Part shown: positions 43,499 to 59,900 of the stretch, in pieces
Layout of the letters: each line of letters starts with the position of its first letter
How positions within the stretch are numbered: the first letter of the stretch is position 1
Notes under the pieces: generated by a model
Told to the model about the DNA's origin: nothing
The model's database searches: none
The model's input: only the letters and a program-made list of their open reading frames with translations
Position numbers and translations under genes: made by a program
From: Enchytraeus crypticus
Taxonomy: Eukaryota > Annelida > Clitellata > Enchytraeida > Enchytraeidae
NCBI GenBank assembly: GCA_905160935.1
Contig: CAJHZI010000612.1
Location: 336,501 to 400,500 of the forward strand
Reading direction: 5' to 3'
Length of the DNA stretch: 64,000 nucleotides

Positions 43499-43534
43499 AT
43501 GGACGAGGACAATGACGTTGATATCGACAGCGAG
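43499..43534 (+). CDS. max: Max exon 1
   Basis: The first ATG in frame, in the context AGAATGG. Twelve codons, donor CGAG|GTGTGT, phase 0. Confidence 0.85.
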
Positions 43535-43625: not shown

Positions 43626-46600
43626 TTAAGAGTACTACAGTCATGAATGACAACATCGAGCTCTAGTGAGCACTATTGTTTTTGTGAAATATTTACCAGT
43701 TTTGAGTGACCTCATCGTACTCATCATTTGCTTTCTCACAGGAGCATCGAAGAAGCTTTACGGTTATTTTATGTTTAGACAAAAATATGAATGATGTCTA
43801 TTAATGTTTCTTTGAGAGTATATCCAAGGTTCAATGAAGTGAAAGCAATAGTAACAACAATAGCTGGACAATTTAGTGCTACTATTGTCCATGATAACAT
43901 TGAGCACCATGGAACCAATCTAACCGATGAGCAGAGTGTGGGGGTCCAATAAACGGTGCGAACGAGAATCTGGAAATTCATTCCAAAGAAGAGTACTAGT
44001 GAAGTGAAGGTTTACATTCTGGTCTCGGTTCATGTATGTTGGATGGGTATAGAGACCGATTAGAAAAGCTTTAATCACTTATGAAACTGTGCATAAAGAA
44101 GTGAGGCTGATCGGGAGTAGATGAGGTGTGCACAGAGTGGAAGGAAGAGAATTCCAGATCTGCGGGGCAGCATGCTGGAAGGAGTTGCTAGACAGCTTGC
44201 TACATGAAAGAATGCTGGGTCTCTCTAGAGAAACTAACTTAGAGGACCTGGTAGACGACTGCTTGGAGGCTGCCCCACTTGTAGTGCGGCATGTCATCCA
44301 AACCTGGTGTAGTGATGGACTTGTACGTCAGAGAAACACTATTTAAATTTAGAAATATAATCGTGTGTAATTATATTTCATTCATTATATGGAGCATGTG
44401 TGAAAATAAGCAATGTCTTAACTTTTTATTTAGAGGCAGAATATTTAGCAAATTTATATCTGATAAATTATAGTACTCTTGCTTAGTGCGGCTTTGTTGC
44501 TGAATGATGGTGATAATTAATAAAACAATAACAGTAGTGCCGTGATGCTCTGATGCAGAATTCTAGCATTATAATGATGATAAGTAATGCCATTGATATG
44601 ATGTTTTTGACTACAGTTCGATGATGATGATGACTATGGGAACGACCAATCGGCTGCTTCTATCGCCAACATGACTGATGTGAGATAATCGCTCCTACTG
44701 TTTTTTATTTTTATTTAATTTTTTTATATTTTTGAATTGAATAATCTTATCCTCGTGACCCTTTTTCTTTAAAATTCTTCTTGGACCATTGTGAGAGTCA
44801 TTTCTTATTTACTCAGTCAGCTTTTCTCAAAATCAGTTTAATTTTAACCGTGCCAAATCAAAATCACAATATTGGGCAGCATTGTTAATCAGTGTAAATC
44901 AAAACCCCAAGCGCTTGCTGCTTTAGAAGTCTGCTAAGTGACTGACAGTGACACCATGTTTTCATTGATAAATGTAAATGTATGTGATGATGATGGATAT
45001 AAGAGCGAAAGATGATGAGGACGATGGGACGTGGTAACATTTAAATTGCTCTGCCTGGGGTGCTGTTATTAAATGTATGCAAATAAATTAAATCAAAGTT
45101 TTTTCAGTGGAATGAATGATTTCACTAATAGTGATTGAGTCATATATTGAAGGAATGATTGTTTGATTGAACAATTGATTGATAGATTGATCTGTTGTTT
45201 AGTAATTGATTGATTTAACCATTGATTGATGGATTGATCTATTGATTTAGTATTTGAGGGATTGTTCTATAGATTTAGTAATTGATTGATTGAACTGTTG
45301 ATTGGTGGATTGGTCTACTGATGGAATGATTGAAGTATTGTTTGATTGATTGAACTATTTATTAATGGATTGATCTACTGATTGATTGATCTACTGATTG
45401 ATTGAAGTATTGATTGATTGATTGATTGATCTATGGATTGATTGAACTATTGATTGATTGAACTATTGATTGATTGAACGATTGATTAATATATTGATCT
45501 ATTGATTGATTGCAGGCAGAGCGCAGGGCTCACCACAATAAGTTGGAGAGACAGAGAAGAGATCAGATTAAGGAGAGTTTTACCAGCCTGAGGGATGTCG
45601 TTCCTTCTCTGTCCCGCGAAAGAGTAATTAATCATAATTCTACAATACAACTTCTCTTTATCATAGTCTAGAATCATTTATTAATAAATATCCTTCATGA
45701 ATTGTGTTTTTGAATAGGACGAGTGTGAGCATTATTGTTTAGGATATCTGGAATGCTTTAAAGGTATTTTTGTTATACTCGTGTATTATAAAATCATTTG
45801 ACCTTACTGGTCTATCTCTTCTCTTCCAATCTACTATGTTATATCAAACCCTCATGGCATTTGTATCTTGTGCATAGTTGTAGTTGTTGTTGGCAGGCGT
45901 CGAGAGCGAAGATACTGCAGTCAGCGACTGACTACATCCGTCAGATGTCGTCTCGTAACCTGGCTGTCATTAATGACATCGACAATCTGAAGAGACAGAA
46001 CAGACAGCTGGAACAGCAGGGTAAGAACTCTTAGACTGCTATGTCTTATAGACTGCGATATCTGATAGATCATAGACTGCAATGTCTTATAGACCATAGA
46101 CTGCGATATCTTATAGACCATAGACTGCAATGTCTTATAGACCATAGACTGCGTTATCTCATAGACCATAGACTGCGATATCTTATAGACTGCGATATCT
46201 TATAGACTGCGATATCTTATAGACCATAGACTGCGATGTCTTGTAGACCAAAGACTGTGATATCTTATAGACTGTAAACTGTGTATTGTGTAGACCATAG
46301 ACTGCTATATCTTATAGACCATAGACTGCTATATCTTATAGACCATAGACTGTGATATCTTAAAGAACATAGACTGCGATATAGACCATAGACTGCGATA
46401 TCTTATAGACCATAGACTGTGATATCTTATAGACCATACACTGAGACGTCTTATAGACCATACACTGAGATGTCTTGTAGACCATACACTGAGATGTCTT
46501 ATAGACCATACACTGAGATGTCTTATAGACCATACACTGAGATGTCTTATAGACCATACACTGAGATGTCTTATAGACCATACACTGAGATGTCTTATAG

Positions 46601-47361
46601 ACCATACACTGAGATGTCTTATAGACCATACACTGAGATGTCTTATAGACCATAGACTGTAATATCTTATAGACCATAGACTGTAATATCTTATAGACCA
46701 TAGACTGTGATATGTTAAAGAACATAGACTGCAATATAGACCATAGACTGTGATTTCTTGTAGATCATACACTGCGATGTCTTATAGCCCATAGACTGCG
46801 ATATCTTATAGACCATAGACTGCAATATCTTATAGACTGCCATATCTTATAGACCATTGACTGCGATGTATCTTATAGACCATAGACTGCGATGTCTTAT
46901 AGACCATAGACTGTGTTATCTTGTAGACCATAGAGAGACCTGTTTTCAGGTAATCAGATGTAGATAGGTTATGATCTGTTGTTGATCTAGTGAGAGAGAT
47001 CTCAGGTAATCAGATGTAGATAGGTTATGATCTTTGTTGATCTAGTGAGAGAGATCTCAGGTAATCAGATGTAGATAGGTTATGATCTGTTGTTGCTCTA
47101 GTGAGAGCTGCAGAGAGGGACCTGTCTGCAGGTAATCAGATGGTGCCCAGTCTGCCAGACAATCAGTTCAGATCCTACGCTGCGGACCTGGGGAGGACAC
47201 CTTTGAGCAGTGACAGCTCGGATGATGACGACGATGTGGATTTGACTGGTGGTCTTGGTCCTAGTGCTCTGTCGCTAGGGGCGTCGCTTAGCAACCAGCG
47301 CCATGGCGACGGATCGTCATTATCAAGGCCTCGCAAGAAGCCCAAGCAGAGCTACTCTTAG
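43499..47361 (+). CDS. max: Max, bHLH-leucine zipper transcription factor (complete, 5 coding exons)
   Basis: Max is the obligate dimer partner of Myc, Mxd/Mad, Mnt and Mga. It binds E-box CACGTG in the nucleus. Exons 43499-43534, 44617-44679, 45516-45623, 45897-46020 and 47102-47361 join in frame (591 nt, 196 residues plus stop), all GT-AG. The N-terminus [12 protein letters not shown] parallels vertebrate SDNDDIEVESDE. The basic region [20 protein letters not shown] (34-53) has the H-N-x-x-E-R-x-R-R E-box residues H40, E44 and R48. Helix 1 and loop continue [16 protein letters not shown], helix 2 is [17 protein letters not shown], and the zipper is [20 protein letters not shown]. The C-terminus has an acidic patch [12 protein letters not shown] and a basic RPRKKPKQ (nuclear-localisation type), as in Max. 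The protein is longer than the 160 aa of human Max because of exon 2 and the C-terminal linker. AATAAA hexamers occur at 48176 and later, but the used poly(A) site is unknown. Confidence 0.96.
43580..43675 (+). repeat. (AAT)n tract and family E fragment in Max intron 1
   Basis: Thirteen AAT repeats lead into AGAGTACTACAGTCATGAATG, a 5' piece of family E. Confidence 0.75.
43850..44045 (+). mobile_element. Dispersed short retroposon, family E
   Basis: AACAACAATAGCTGG, TTAGTGCTACTATTGTCCA, CGATGAGCAGAGTGTGGGG and GTTTACATTCTGGTCTCGG, in Max intron 1. Confidence 0.7.
44079..44297 (-). mobile_element. LINE reverse-transcriptase C-terminus remnant
   Basis: The minus strand reads [16 protein letters not shown], a conserved CR1/Jockey/I-type C-terminal motif also present at 1767-1877. 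It lies inside Max intron 1, antisense to Max. Confidence 0.7.
44617..44679 (+). CDS. max: Max exon 2 (acidic insert)
   Basis: The acceptor is TTTGACTACAG. Twenty-one codons read [20 protein letters not shown] plus D. The donor is TGAT|GTGAGA, phase 0. It occupies the place of the optional short EEQPRFQSA segment of vertebrate Max, so skipping it would keep frame. Confidence 0.8.
45150..45512 (+). repeat. (GATT)n-type repeat in Max intron 2
   Basis: Units such as ATTGATTGATTGAACTATTG run up to the acceptor TGATTGCAG of exon 3. Confidence 0.9.
45516..45623 (+). CDS. max: Max exon 3 (basic region, helix 1)
   Basis: [20 protein letters not shown] and then [16 protein letters not shown]. The donor is AAGA|GTAATT, phase 0. 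Exon boundaries match vertebrate Max. Confidence 0.95.
45897..46020 (+). CDS. max: Max exon 4 (helix 2, zipper)
   Basis: [20 protein letters not shown], then [15 protein letters not shown]. The exon ends CAGCAGG|GTAAGA and contributes one base to the next Val codon. Confidence 0.95.
46034..46935 (+). repeat. 24-bp minisatellite in Max intron 4
   Basis: Units of about 24 bp (CTTATAGACCATAGACTGCG plus ATAT) fill most of the intron. At 46435-46655 nine units (CTTATAGACCATACACTGAG plus ATGT) are almost identical, giving an open frame with an eight-residue repeat that I regard as non-coding. Confidence 0.95.
46991..47005 (+). other. Candidate Max microexon (copy 1)
   Basis: TGAGAGAGATCTCAG is preceded by TTGATCTAG and followed by GTAATC. 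It is 15 nt and phase-compatible, so inclusion would insert VREIS without breaking the frame. Use is not shown. Confidence 0.3.
47046..47060 (+). other. Candidate Max microexon (copy 2)
   Basis: The sequence and flanks are identical to the candidate at 46991-47005. Confidence 0.3.
47102..47361 (+). CDS. max: Max exon 5 (zipper end, acidic and basic C-terminus, stop)
   Basis: After the split Val the exon reads [20 protein letters not shown], then an acidic block, ends [10 protein letters not shown] and stops at TAG. Confidence 0.92.
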
Positions 47362-51346: not shown

Positions 51347-54300
51347 CTGTTCAGATCAATCAATCAAGTAGTCAAACAATCAAGAAAATAAGTTTAAAAT
51401 GTTATAAAGATCATAATCATCTTCCATTGAATCCCTGTTTAACCAGGGTTGAGGTACAAATACACTGTCTCAAATACTCTCTGTCTTACATCATACCATC
51501 AATCCCCTTATTTGAGACTTTACCATTCGTTTCAATTTTTGTAGCAATTTCTGGAGACTAGGCGCTCACCAACAGAATGCCTTTTCTGACGTGACGTTGG
51601 TATGGATCTTAGTGCTTTAGTCGCCTTATGCGACACGTACAGTCAGCGATTGGTCAATTTCTCAAACAACCCAGACACAGCACGGGGACAAAAGTTATTA
51701 AGATATAGGTTGAAATATATCTAAGTCTGGAACCGGTCTAATCGAAGCTGAGTTGTAGTCCTGGAATCAATTGTCAGTTATAAATTAATCACCTTAATCA
51801 CTACCGGCTGTGCAAACATTGCGCTACAACAAAATTAGCAGTGTGTAGAAAGAGAATCGTCATCAAATCTACTTATTAAGTTATATGAATCAATCACTGT
51901 TAGGTCAACTAATTACATCAAATGAGTCAATCACTGTTAGATCAAGTGATAACAACAAAAGAGTCCCTGTCAAATCAACTGTTCAAATCTAATGGAACAA
52001 TACCCAACCAACTCCTGAAATCAAATCAGCTTTAAACTGCATGTTTTAAATATTTAGTAAATAAGCACTGCGATGATATAGAGCAAGGAAAAAGTCAAAG
52101 TTTTAGATAAATCAGTGAATAAATCTTCAAATGAATGAATAAAAAATCAAATAATAATCCGAAGTTTCTTCCATTTATATCAAGTATATTTGAATTCATT
52201 TGTATTATCGACGTAGACCAATAACAACAACAACAACAACAAAAACAACAACAACGATATGATTGATTAGAGTGCTGCTGCTGTCCATGACAACATCGAA
52301 CAATAACATAAAGAGTAAAGTATATATTACATCTGTACCTGTGCAATGTCTTAGCAATGATCGTCTTCATCTCATGCATTGCAAAGTGCTGTCCAATACA
52401 GTTCCTACAAGAACAATACGTATAAATAGTTATAAAAGAAACGATGGATCTTCAAATACACTATATGCATCTTAAAACACCATACGCACGCTTAAAGCCA
52501 GTTTGCATCGATAACGCTTTGCAAGAAGGTGCAATTCATCAACTTTGGTATAAGGCACTAAATAGCAAATTTTGTTTTCTCAGAGTTACTTAGAAGACAG
52601 TCACAGTGTTTCCAACCGTTTCGGACATCAAATTGACACTAAATAGCCCAATTATTTGATTATTATCATATAGACCTGGACCCCTAAGAGACATTAATTG
52701 ATCATTGTCATACACACCTGGACCCCTATGAGCCATTATTTGAGTATTATCATATAAACGGAGGAGTTATATACCATGGACCTGCCAGTAGGCAGTGCAC
52801 TAAGAGAGAGAGAGAGAGAGAGATCAAACACACCTGGGCCCCGCAGAGAAAGGCACGAATGCGTAGTTGTCAGTCTCTGCTAATTTCTCTGAACTGAATC
52901 TTTCCGGACGGAATTCCTCCGGATCCTCCCAGACGAGTGGATTGTGGTGCAGGACGTAGAGGTGAATGTCCACGATTGTCCCAGCAGGAACCTTGCGTCC
53001 CTCAATCTCTAAATCCTTGGTGGTCTGACGTTGAATGAACGGAACTGGAGTATGGATGCGTAGGGATTCCTTGATACACATGGTTAGATAGGTGAGCTTA
53101 GGTAAATCATCCCTGTGCAATCAATCAATCAATCAATCTAGAGCATTATGTTGTCATGAAGTATTTTGTAATTTAAAAAATCATCAATTATTCGAAATAA
53201 AGTAATCATTCATTGTACTAGAAAACTTGCTTCAATTCACAATCTTTATCAAGTAGTCCTATAAGAGAGGGAAATCTCGAACATTCAGAAAGACCGATGA
53301 AATTGGCACTTTTTGCAAAAATCTAACCGTTGATTTAACGTTTTAAATTAGAATTTATAGGCCTAGAGATCATCTTGGACGATTTGTTTATTAGAAATAT
53401 CCAGCATGTACAATTTTCTTAGAATCTCTATTCACTGTATTTCTTGTACTGTTTTGTGACAATAGATCATAAATTCCTCTACCACTCGATGTCTTTGTTT
53501 TCTTTGCTAGCGAGCACCTCATCGATCTCCTGCTGACATCTCTCCTGATGCTCCGGGTGCTGAGCGAGCGAGTAGAGGGTCCAAGATATACCACTGGCCG
53601 TTGTGTCGTGTCCTACACAAATCAATCAATCGATTCGTAGTTGAGCTAACCATCATTTAACATTAATTAATAGCCTATCTCTCTCTTAGTGCACTGCCTA
53701 CTGGCAGGTCCATGGTACATAACGACTCCACTCTTCTCTGTCTTCCGACTTCCTCTTCATTTCCACATATGAGTGGGTCTTTAAATCATCTAACATACCT
53801 AATCTCGGCCTGCCCCTACCTCTTTTTCCTTCCATTCTACCTTGAAAGGAAAAAGAAACAGGGACAGGCCGAGATTAGGTATGTTAGATGATTTAAAGAC
53901 CCGCTCATATGTTGGTCTTTAAATATGTGGGTTTTTAATAGCCTATATGATCTTTATTTCACCAAAATACATGGCAGTATAAACAGAACAAGAAATTAGA
54001 AATAATGACAGAACAGAACAACAGAAACCAAGAATTAATCATCAAAGAGTCTACAAATAGAGAAATTTAAACTAAAATCGCCGTTTATCTTAGGATCGGC
54101 TTTCAATAAGCTAATTAGGTCAATATACCTTCAAAATAAGTCCAAACTTTGTATCTTATTTTGCCAATAGTAGCCTATCATCGTTCTGAATTGCATATTT
54201 ATTTTTAATATTAACATAATCCATATAATCAGACTTATCTAAATCTAGTTTACTATCCAAGCATCCAAAGTCAATTAGCTTATGTAAGAAAGTATATCTG

Positions 54301-56981: not shown

Positions 56982-59900
56982 CATACAGCATTCTGTAGAC
57001 CACCGCCTCCCCCAGGTTTGTAATCGCTTGTACGTATGGGTTGCTATCACTGAAAGCAAAAGTTATTATATCAATAACGAAATATCGATAGAATTTCTTT
57101 TACTAAATTCAAAAGCTTCGAGATGGCTCTTCCGTGCTAATCCCATCAAAAGCTTCGCTGGAAAGTAGGACCGGATGTAGATTCCGCAAGAAAGGTCAAG
57201 TAGTGATAGGAAATGTACCAATGTACCAATAAGCTGGTAGCTTATTGGTACATTGTCCGACTGCGAATCAGTACGTGCAGGGTTCAAATTTAGTGGTCGC
57301 CTTATCGACTTTCACGCTTTCGATAGAGGAAACTAACGGTAATTTCGTCTTTATCCATTAACAACAAAGAACAAAATATAATTGAATGTCAATGTAATTA
57401 TTAGAGGTGATAAAATTATCCTAGTTGTTAAATACTCATAGTCTAACTAATGACATAGTAATTTACTAGAAAAAGATAGATCGAATGACGTCGTTAACAC
57501 ATTAAAATAGCAAGCGTAGTGCTAATACAAAAAGTCTAATCATTTATTTGAGATTGTTAATTACACACAACAATTTACTTTTGCAATCAATTTGAATCGC
57601 CTTCAGTCATAGATCCAATACGCTTACGCCTGCCAATGCAACCAGCTAACGACAATCAATGTTATTTAATGTTACCGAAGGTAAGTTAAAAGAGGTGTTT
57701 AACATTTGCCCTAACCCTTGTCTCTGACAATCTATTTCATAGGAGAAAGCACATCGCAGGATGACATCAAGCGTCAGCATGCTGATGTTGTTCATCATCT
57801 CAAAGTACTCACCGCTCGCGGCGTACTTATCCAGCTTCGACTAAAATGAGTTAATTTAAATAAATAAATAATTTAATAGGTAATATTCATCAATATATTC
57901 GTTAGGGACAATATAGAACTATGGATTTTACAGTTGCAATTTCTGAGAACTGGATCGTTACTCCGTTTAGTCTGACTGTAGTTGTATTGTTGTTGTTGTT
58001 GCTGTTGTTGTTGTTGTTGTTGACTGCTGCTTAGGTTGGTTGGTCAACCAAGGCCACGATTGGGTTTCACAGTTTCAGCGGTTTACACCAATGTACTCTT
58101 GACGTCTTAACATAAACATACATGACGGCACACTGGGTCAGGAAGCACAGACGCTTGTTTAAGTCCCATTTCCTCCTTCCTCTCCATTATCAGGGGCGGA
58201 TCCAGGAATTTTTTAAGGGGGGCCCGAAATTTTTTTTGAGAGTCACTAGAGTGTACATTTCTTTTTGCTTACTGCCTTCTTCGATACTGCCTTCTTCGAG
58301 ACATATGGCGCAACCAGACAAATTTCTGTTGGGGGGGGGGGCTGAAATTTGTTCACTACAGCATTCGGCTCATAGAGTGAGTGTATCCTCCGTACCTTAC
58401 CCCCCCCCCCCCGCTCCTACCCCCGTACTAAAGTCAGGAGAAAACCCTTTTCCTCCAATGCATTGGTTATGCATTGGTTCAAGTGAAAATTGAGAGCTAG
58501 TGAAACGGTCAACATTCTTCGGGCCCCTTCCATTATACAGGGCTCCTAGTATATCCTAGAAAAAATCGAGCTATTGGAAATGAGTTCCCTGTCGTATTCC
58601 CCCCCCCGCCCCCCCCCTAACCACTGCTATTGCTAACATATTTACACATCGAAATTGCCATAGAAACATTGAAAATATAGATTTAAAAATTTTATCGGCG
58701 GTCCTAAGGGGGAGGCCCGGGCCCCCCTTAGGTCCGCCACTGCTAACCACTACCCTTACAAACATACTGACACATCGAAATTGTCATCACCCGAACCAGC
58801 CTTACTTGAATATGTACTGTTAGATACTGTAAGACATGTAAATGTAAAAACTAATACATATTTGTATTGTTCTAATTATCTTTATTTAATATCAGGCTGA
58901 TGAAGAAGAAAGGAACTCCAAGAGTTTGGTTCAGTTCGGTTTGGACGAAGTCTGGGTTCTGGTTCGGTTTGGGTTCGGCCAGAGTCTGGGTTCGGGTTCG
59001 GTTCAGGTTCGGCCAGAGTCTGGGTTCGAGTTCGGTTCGGTCAAAATTCTAGATTTTAGGGTTCGGTTCGGGTTCGGTTCGATTCCCATCTCTAGTCAGA
59101 ACACGTTTCTTTGCAACAGTGTTAAATGACTAATAGAGCAGATATAGGCCTACAATTTTCTTCATAATATTTCTCATTAAACGGATTTCATTTATTTCTC
59201 TTACTAAGATTCTTACTGAACGATAGTTATGTTTTGCATTACATTGTCTGACTCTTAAGTGACTTTTACATTGCTAATGATAACATATGGAGGACTGTGA
59301 TAATGTTCAACTTGTTAATAATAATAATAACAATAATAATAATAATAATAAAGGTTTAACGTCCGTTTCCTCATACAAGGATGATGTCAGGGACGTTAGC
59401 AACAATTTGTTCACGGTACTGGCAGATGGTTTAGATACTAATCTGAGCACTGAATGCGCTGTCGGGGAACTAGCTCACATGGTAGAGCGCTCGCTTAGCA
59501 TGCGAGAGGTACGGGGATCGATACCCCGGTTCTCCAGGTCATTGTTCTTCATTTTTAATTGGCTGTAGATTTCTTTAAAACTAAGCTTTATCGTGATGAA
59601 CAAACCGCCCCTATAGCAAATTATGTACAATACGGTGCCAGTGGCTTTAGTTAACATTAGACCAGTTTTACATTAGTATTGCTCATACCAACCAGGAATA
59701 TGTCAGTTGCTCGGTTGTTGACCGTCATGTACGGTCTCAGAATATCAAAATGAAAAGCGGGGGTGAGAAGGCGACGGTTTCTGGCCCATTTTGAGCCCCC
59801 CGAGAGCAGCAATCCGTCCCCCAGCCATGGGTAAATATTTGTATACCCTCCCCATTGGCGCGGCTTTGGTTCTGAAAATAAATAAAAGTGCATTAAATAC

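Follow-up and report, generated by a model that had tools for sequence, protein, structure and literature searches.

The Max gene and the tandem array before its last coding exon

The window, by which we mean the whole 64-kb stretch of Enchytraeus crypticus DNA that was analysed, carries on its + strand a Max gene. The identification, also made in the initial annotation, rests on two agreeing lines of evidence: an HLH match in Pfam at 7.5e-16, and matches of Max chains in the PDB at E values of about 3e-9, with LEQQ-VRA aligned across the exon 4/5 junction. Taken together with the spliced reading frame, the Pfam and PDB matches describe a Max-type bHLH plus zipper protein. Coding exon 1 (43499..43534; donor GAG/GTGTGT, with a slash here and below marking a splice junction or a copy of one) was placed from sequence, and exon 2 (44617..44679) from sequence and splice sites. 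Exon 3 (45516..45623; donor AGA/GTAATT), located by the HLH match, encodes the basic region and helix 1; exon 4 (45897..46020), located by the PDB chain alignment and by splicing in frame, encodes helix 2 and most of the zipper and ends in LEQQ; and exon 5 (47102..47361), the last coding exon, has an open frame to a stop at 47359-47361 and aligns with Max chains through VRA. Intron 4, bounded by its splice sites (46021..47101, 1081 nt), is filled for the most part by a 24-bp minisatellite of 38 copies (46048..46934) detected by Tandem Repeats Finder.

The Max exons have a single match in the assembly, with weaker bHLH matches on contigs C359, C760, C609 and C233. On C760 (5737-6883, - strand) there is a second bHLH-Zip-like gene, which matches Max in two pieces (54% and 45% identity) that divide at about the same place. 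A scan of genome contigs and viral contigs with the Max protein found no relative that encodes Max.

Directly upstream of exon 5 lie three units of about 56 bp (46930-47101) that repeat the end of intron 4 and the start of exon 5, an arrangement that had been proposed from inspection of the sequence and that both the repeat finder and alignment confirm. Tandem Repeats Finder defines 46946-47107 as a tandem repeat (period 55, 2.9 copies, 97% matches, score 310), and 46979-47033 is identical to 47034-47088 over 55 nt, a degree of identity far beyond chance. The repeat unit spans the exon boundary, with about 26 nt of exon start and 29 nt of intron end: that is, tandem units join the end of an intron (TAGATAGGTTATGATCTGTTGTTGATCTAG, with small changes) to a shortened start of the adjoining exon, ending GTAATCAGATG. 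Splice dinucleotides are present in the units, with AG at 46990 and 47045, and GT at 46950, 47006, and 47061.

Unit 1 (46930..46990, + strand), recognized by an 88% match and by alignment, comprises the exon-like sequence AGAGAGACCTGTTTTCAG/GTAATCAGATG and a copy of the intron end, with an acceptor copy at 46989-46990. Unit 2 (46991..47045, + strand, 55 nt) comprises TGAGAGAGATCTCAG at 46991-47005, a donor copy, GTAATC, at 47006, and an acceptor copy ending at 47045. Unit 3 (47046..47101, + strand, 56 nt) comprises the same 15-nt piece at 47046-47060, a donor copy at 47061, and the real acceptor, CTCTAG, ending at 47101. The pieces quoted in the initial annotation, and the junctions at 46020, 46991, 47005, 47046, 47060, and 47102, are correct; its description of the upstream unit as merely CAGGTAATCAGATG is wrong, since 46929-46960 matches a fuller exon start, 47111-47142, at 88%.

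The exon-like segment is 30 nt long in the real exon, about 20 nt long in unit 1, and 15 nt long in units 2 and 3, an order that suggests that the length of exactly 15 nt was reached through a series of deletions. Unit 1, which is older, carries a longer exon-like form than units 2 and 3. The identical in-phase 15-nt AG-TGAGAGAGATCTCAG-GT piece that had been pointed out in two units is indeed present in both, but one of these units was copied from the other, and therefore both pieces represent one event: the "two in-phase microexons" count as a single coincidence, for which the odds are about 1 in 3. The array sequence matches the assembly at one place only, so no second haplotype was found. 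With a looser, 5-nt overlap at the boundary, intron 4 was the only one of the four Max introns to show edge copies.

Hybrid assembly could in principle have placed extra units: the published assembly is described as a MaSuRCA hybrid (PMC8460440), and one array of comparable kind in lancelets is reported to have been mis-assembled in draft (PMC3087553). However, the Max units differ from one another by indels and substitutions, and the corresponding copies in the DNAH2 gene (see below) are about 4-20% off the exon edge, so most of those copies cannot be artefacts. We consider an assembly artefact extremely unlikely.

Strength and consequences of the copied splice sites

To score the copied splice sites we used a position weight model built on 38 introns of the DNAH2 gene of the same genome. 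The donor CAG/GTAATC scores 7.8, corresponding to the 71st percentile of the 38 real donors, and the own donor of exon 4 scores 4.96; the three GTAATC donor copies are the best-scoring GT sites in Max intron 4, and GTAATC also occurs once among the 38 DNAH2 donors. The acceptor copies at 46990 and 47045 score 6.37 and 6.09, and the real acceptor at 47101 scores 5.21 (21st percentile). The acceptor model discriminates poorly, because 12 of the 93 AG sites in intron 4 score at least as high as the real acceptor, which is itself counted among the 12. In signal strength, and in signal strength only, both splice sites of the candidate new exon lie within the range of the 38 real introns. By this model the copied sites are not obviously dead, and some use of them in Max is possible, given acceptors that outscore the real one and donors that score best in the intron.

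If donor and acceptor copies were used together, 46991-47005 and/or 47046-47060 would be included in the mRNA as 15-nt microexons that place VREIS at the zipper's end, as the initial annotation had suggested in proposing a nascent alternative exon. The proposal is sound as to frame and phase: joining 46020 to either or both pieces, and then to 47102, keeps the reading frame and inserts VREIS or VREISVREIS. The pattern is also uncommon in its strict form, with only three stop-free candidates of exactly 15 nt with a GTAA donor on the + strand of the window (25309, 46991, and 47046), two of them in the array. However, these two are one event, and looser candidates are common: with a YAG acceptor and a GTAA, GTGA, GTAT, or GTAC donor, the + strand of the window contains 163 phase-compatible, stop-free candidate microexons of 9-30 nt, of which 24 are exactly 15 nt. 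Because looser candidates are so common, the pattern alone provides weak evidence, although it is still better than the general run.

The introns implied by microexon use also argue against it. Splicing in the 15-nt pieces needs introns of 96, 41, or 40 nt, whereas the shortest of the 38 DNAH2 introns, all measured in that one gene, is 125 nt and the next is 196 nt. A real intron was gained by a comparable tandem duplication in the potato RdRp gene, where, according to the published account, the intron end and exon start were duplicated and a cryptic GTAAG donor was present (PMC4974935). The potato case, an instance of the Rogers model, is like Max in the duplication of an intron 3' end together with an exon start and in the availability of a cryptic exonic GTAA donor, but differs in that the new potato intron is reported to be spliced (106 RNA-seq reads), whereas the introns implied in Max are 40-96 nt long and the Max exon is a candidate only. 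Thus, of the nascent-exon proposal, the splice signals stand, but the implied introns are shorter than any measured and no Max-specific function is needed; we consider inclusion of the 15-nt pieces very unlikely. Two further suggestions gain no support: GTAATC in the real exon, which had been read as an old donor, is coding sequence (Gly-Asn-Gln) taken along in the duplication, and a 5-residue insert, which had been expected to change zipper length, is no heptad.

Use of the copied acceptors without the copied donors would have a different consequence. Were splicing of intron 4 to end appreciably often at the acceptors 46990 and 47045, transcripts would join 46020 to 46991 or 47046 and run on into GTAATCAGATGTAG, and both would read through to the same truncated C-terminus in the last exon, yielding a Max without its acidic and basic tail. 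Exon-junction nonsense decay spares an mRNA with a stop within the last exon, and, because the stop lies there, the truncated mRNA would not be removed by this route. Both acceptors score at least as high as the acceptor at 47101, and the truncated product would bear a likeness to human DeltaMax, which has a shorter C-terminus and an altered last zipper heptad (PMC5370111). DeltaMax is reported to arise by inclusion of an alternative exon, with Val and Leu of the last heptad becoming Gly and Glu, and the report indicates that a changed last heptad and a shorter tail can matter for Max (PMC5370111). We infer that the site of the DeltaMax change corresponds to the LEQQ/VRAL junction. The two would have in common a splicing alternative that leaves Max with a reduced C-terminus and a different last zipper heptad; the cases differ in that DeltaMax uses a separate exon that places Gly and Glu in the heptad, whereas here V and I would keep the hydrophobic positions. 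Against appreciable use of the copied acceptors stand the poor discrimination of acceptor scores noted above, published descriptions of arrays of this kind in lancelets that have normal mRNAs (PMC3087553, PMC3902484), and the very recent state of the array together with the finding, documented below, that its DNAH2 counterparts are dead ends (stops in 17/17), which argue for leakage rather than for a conserved isoform. We consider the truncated isoform unlikely.

Edge copies in the DNAH2 gene of the same contig

The contig that carries Max also carries, on the opposite strand, most of the axonemal dynein gene DNAH2, which lies in a 264-kb stretch that includes the window and of which separate pieces matched a 4424-residue PDB chain, from residue 165 to residue 4135. 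We placed its introns by use of a purpose-written spliced aligner with mammalian DNAH2 segments. The aligner made 49 intron calls, of which 11 (those in which one flank had fewer than 3 identities among about 9 residues, or whose length was at least 1500 nt) were dropped before counting, leaving 38. An edge copy was defined as a copy of at least 40 nt with at least 80% identity, including at least 8 nt on each side of the exon boundary, and located within 700 nt. All edge-copy statistics rest on this one aligned gene.

The results show that the anatomy seen in Max recurs in DNAH2. In the portion of the gene with edge copies (C519:236501-296500, - strand, by spliced alignment), copies are present at 12/38 acceptors and 5/38 donors, such that 15/38 introns have at least one; at one acceptor there are four extra units of 51 nt, and at another there are five of 40 nt. 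The copies are boundary-spanning tandem units, AG is present in 29/31 acceptor copies, and GT is present in 6/6 donor copies, which is what an array fit for splicing would be expected to show. At one of the five donors the copy is located upstream, outside the following intron, and two of the 12 acceptors are doubtful (34605, with 12-13 exonic nt in low-complexity sequence, and 11193, with an uncertain exon start).

Comparison with random positions indicates that exon edges are no special target. The same definition gave copies at 93/400 random intronic positions, and there is no excess at the edges relative to these (Fisher p 0.24 for acceptors and 0.22 for donors; p 0.69 for the 10/38 acceptors that remain when the two doubtful ones are removed). 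Exon centres had copies in 0/35 cases, as compared to 17/76 for edges (p 0.001), a difference that would follow if only copies removed by splicing persist. A previous version of the test gave copies at 5 acceptors and 3 donors of 18, at 79/300 positions in the gene span, at 51/400 positions in the 264 kb, and at 0/13 exon centres. Of the 264-kb stretch that includes the window, 19% is occupied by tandem arrays detected by Tandem Repeats Finder; the GC content of this stretch is 37.0%, and that reported for the E. crypticus nuclear genome is 35.4% (PMC8460440). The simplest reading is that short tandem duplications arise often and without preference for location, and that those remain which splicing can remove.

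The divergence of the copies has a neutral appearance. For 20 copies at 10 DNAH2 acceptors, identity is 0.895 in the exon part and 0.888 in the intron part; divergence is equal, and the exon copies therefore give no indication of constraint. At the same 10 acceptors, with offsets taken at the boundary and the two doubtful acceptors dropped, AG is retained in 17/19 copies, and no selection on AG is seen in comparison with the 50/63 retained for other AG pairs (p 0.50). For all 17 DNAH2 copies that keep AG, in-frame extension of the exon back to the copied AG brings in a stop ahead of the real exon, and productive exon extension is therefore unlikely at these copies; an ungapped version of the analysis, in which 15/20 copies were tested, also found stops in all. 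The spacing of the nearest copy is a multiple of 3 at 6/10 DNAH2 acceptors (p 0.08), which gives a weak hint that copied acceptors may sometimes be in use. Within the available power, we conclude that the DNAH2 copies are neutral.

Mirages in lancelets and in an annelid

Arrays of this kind have been described in lancelets under the name mirages: in Branchiostoma, in Adh3 and the globins BflGb6 and BflGb9 (PMC3087553), and in troponin C and PGBD5 (PMC3902484). According to these accounts, lancelet mirages are minisatellite-like duplications of 3' or 5' exon boundaries that retain AG or GT in many units, as in E. crypticus, and they are reported not to disturb splicing (PMC3087553, PMC3902484); the units of BflGb6 are described as 81-100% identical (PMC3087553). 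The cases differ in host, here an annelid, and in unit length, which is 55-56 bp in the Max array, as compared to a reported 150-160 bp in BflGb6 and 10-72 bp in Adh3. In human duplicated genes, minisatellites at exon-intron boundaries can reportedly create novel introns and splice patterns; those genes, by contrast, lie in primate-specific segmental duplications and come with transcript evidence (PMC2812944). Mirages by that name were found in lancelets only, in a literature search that was made on the theme, did not have annelids among its terms, and covered few subscription journals; the available portion of the E. crypticus genome paper makes no mention of boundary duplications (PMC8460440).

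We conclude that the Max array is very probably a mirage, and a silent one: a boundary-spanning, minisatellite-like duplication, essentially neutral, that is spliced out with intron 4. The observations that support this conclusion are the repeat itself, its recent, homogenised state, the same anatomy in DNAH2, and the neutral-looking divergence there. Because edge copies in 15/38 DNAH2 introns match the tandem-repeat background, no Max-specific origin or function is needed. Replication or recombination slippage would have generated the array, in a genome full of such arrays. The array would persist as a neutral feature of Max, since all sequence 5' of the last acceptor would be removed with intron 4, and the spliceosome would take the acceptor nearest the 3' end of the intron, for instance through exon definition, with low leakage to the copied sites.

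On its own, the Max case is ordinary, and a Max-specific interpretation is probably not right. What is new here is the presence of mirages, and of many of them, in an annelid: they are common in the DNAH2 gene and, judging by the repeat background, probably across the genome. Arrays of near-identical 3' splice sites provide a natural test of how the correct site is chosen, and annelid mirages provide a setting in which to look for the birth of exons and introns by tandem duplication; the spare splice sites left by an array could seed a new mini-exon. A more far-reaching proposal would be that mirages pervade this annelid genome, far from lancelets, so that about one-third of introns hold near-equivalent splice sites in arrays, that the rule by which the spliceosome deals with them is still to be found, and that units such as the VREIS piece are occasionally spliced in, making mirages a running source of microexons and introns. 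We regard this proposal as quite improbable.

Other features of the window and the contig include a P450 gene (52651-52837, - strand) in which an exon end and donor, GGGGCCCAG/GTGTGTTTGA at 52833, occur again within a 42-bp array, as GGGGTCCAG/GTGTGTATGA, some 115 nt downstream. The P450 array is likely to be a donor-side mirage, although a weaker case. In many DNAH2 introns (uncounted), as well as in Max introns 2 and 3, (TTGA)n or (TTG)n extends right up to the CAG or TAG, as if these repeats served as branch-site and pyrimidine region. DNAH2 donors are loose, with a pyrimidine at +3 in 23/38 and with GTCTGT as the commonest hexamer (4/38), a pattern to which aligner placement could contribute. 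Elsewhere in the assembly, the mitochondrial contig C802, located through COX1, reads TGA as Trp and, in a comparison with COX1 sequences made by eye, AGA/AGG as Ser and ATA as Met; its genes, also recognized by eye, run ND5-ND4L-ND4 and ND3-ND2-COX1-COX2 on a single strand, which is the arrangement of annelids, and the published E. crypticus mitochondrial genome is described as Lumbricus-like in gene order, with one exception (PMC8460440). A tRNA match (59464-59536, + strand, 52.5 bits) lies inside an open frame. Several open reading frames in the 264 kb share peptides, which suggests an abundant repeat, perhaps a SINE.
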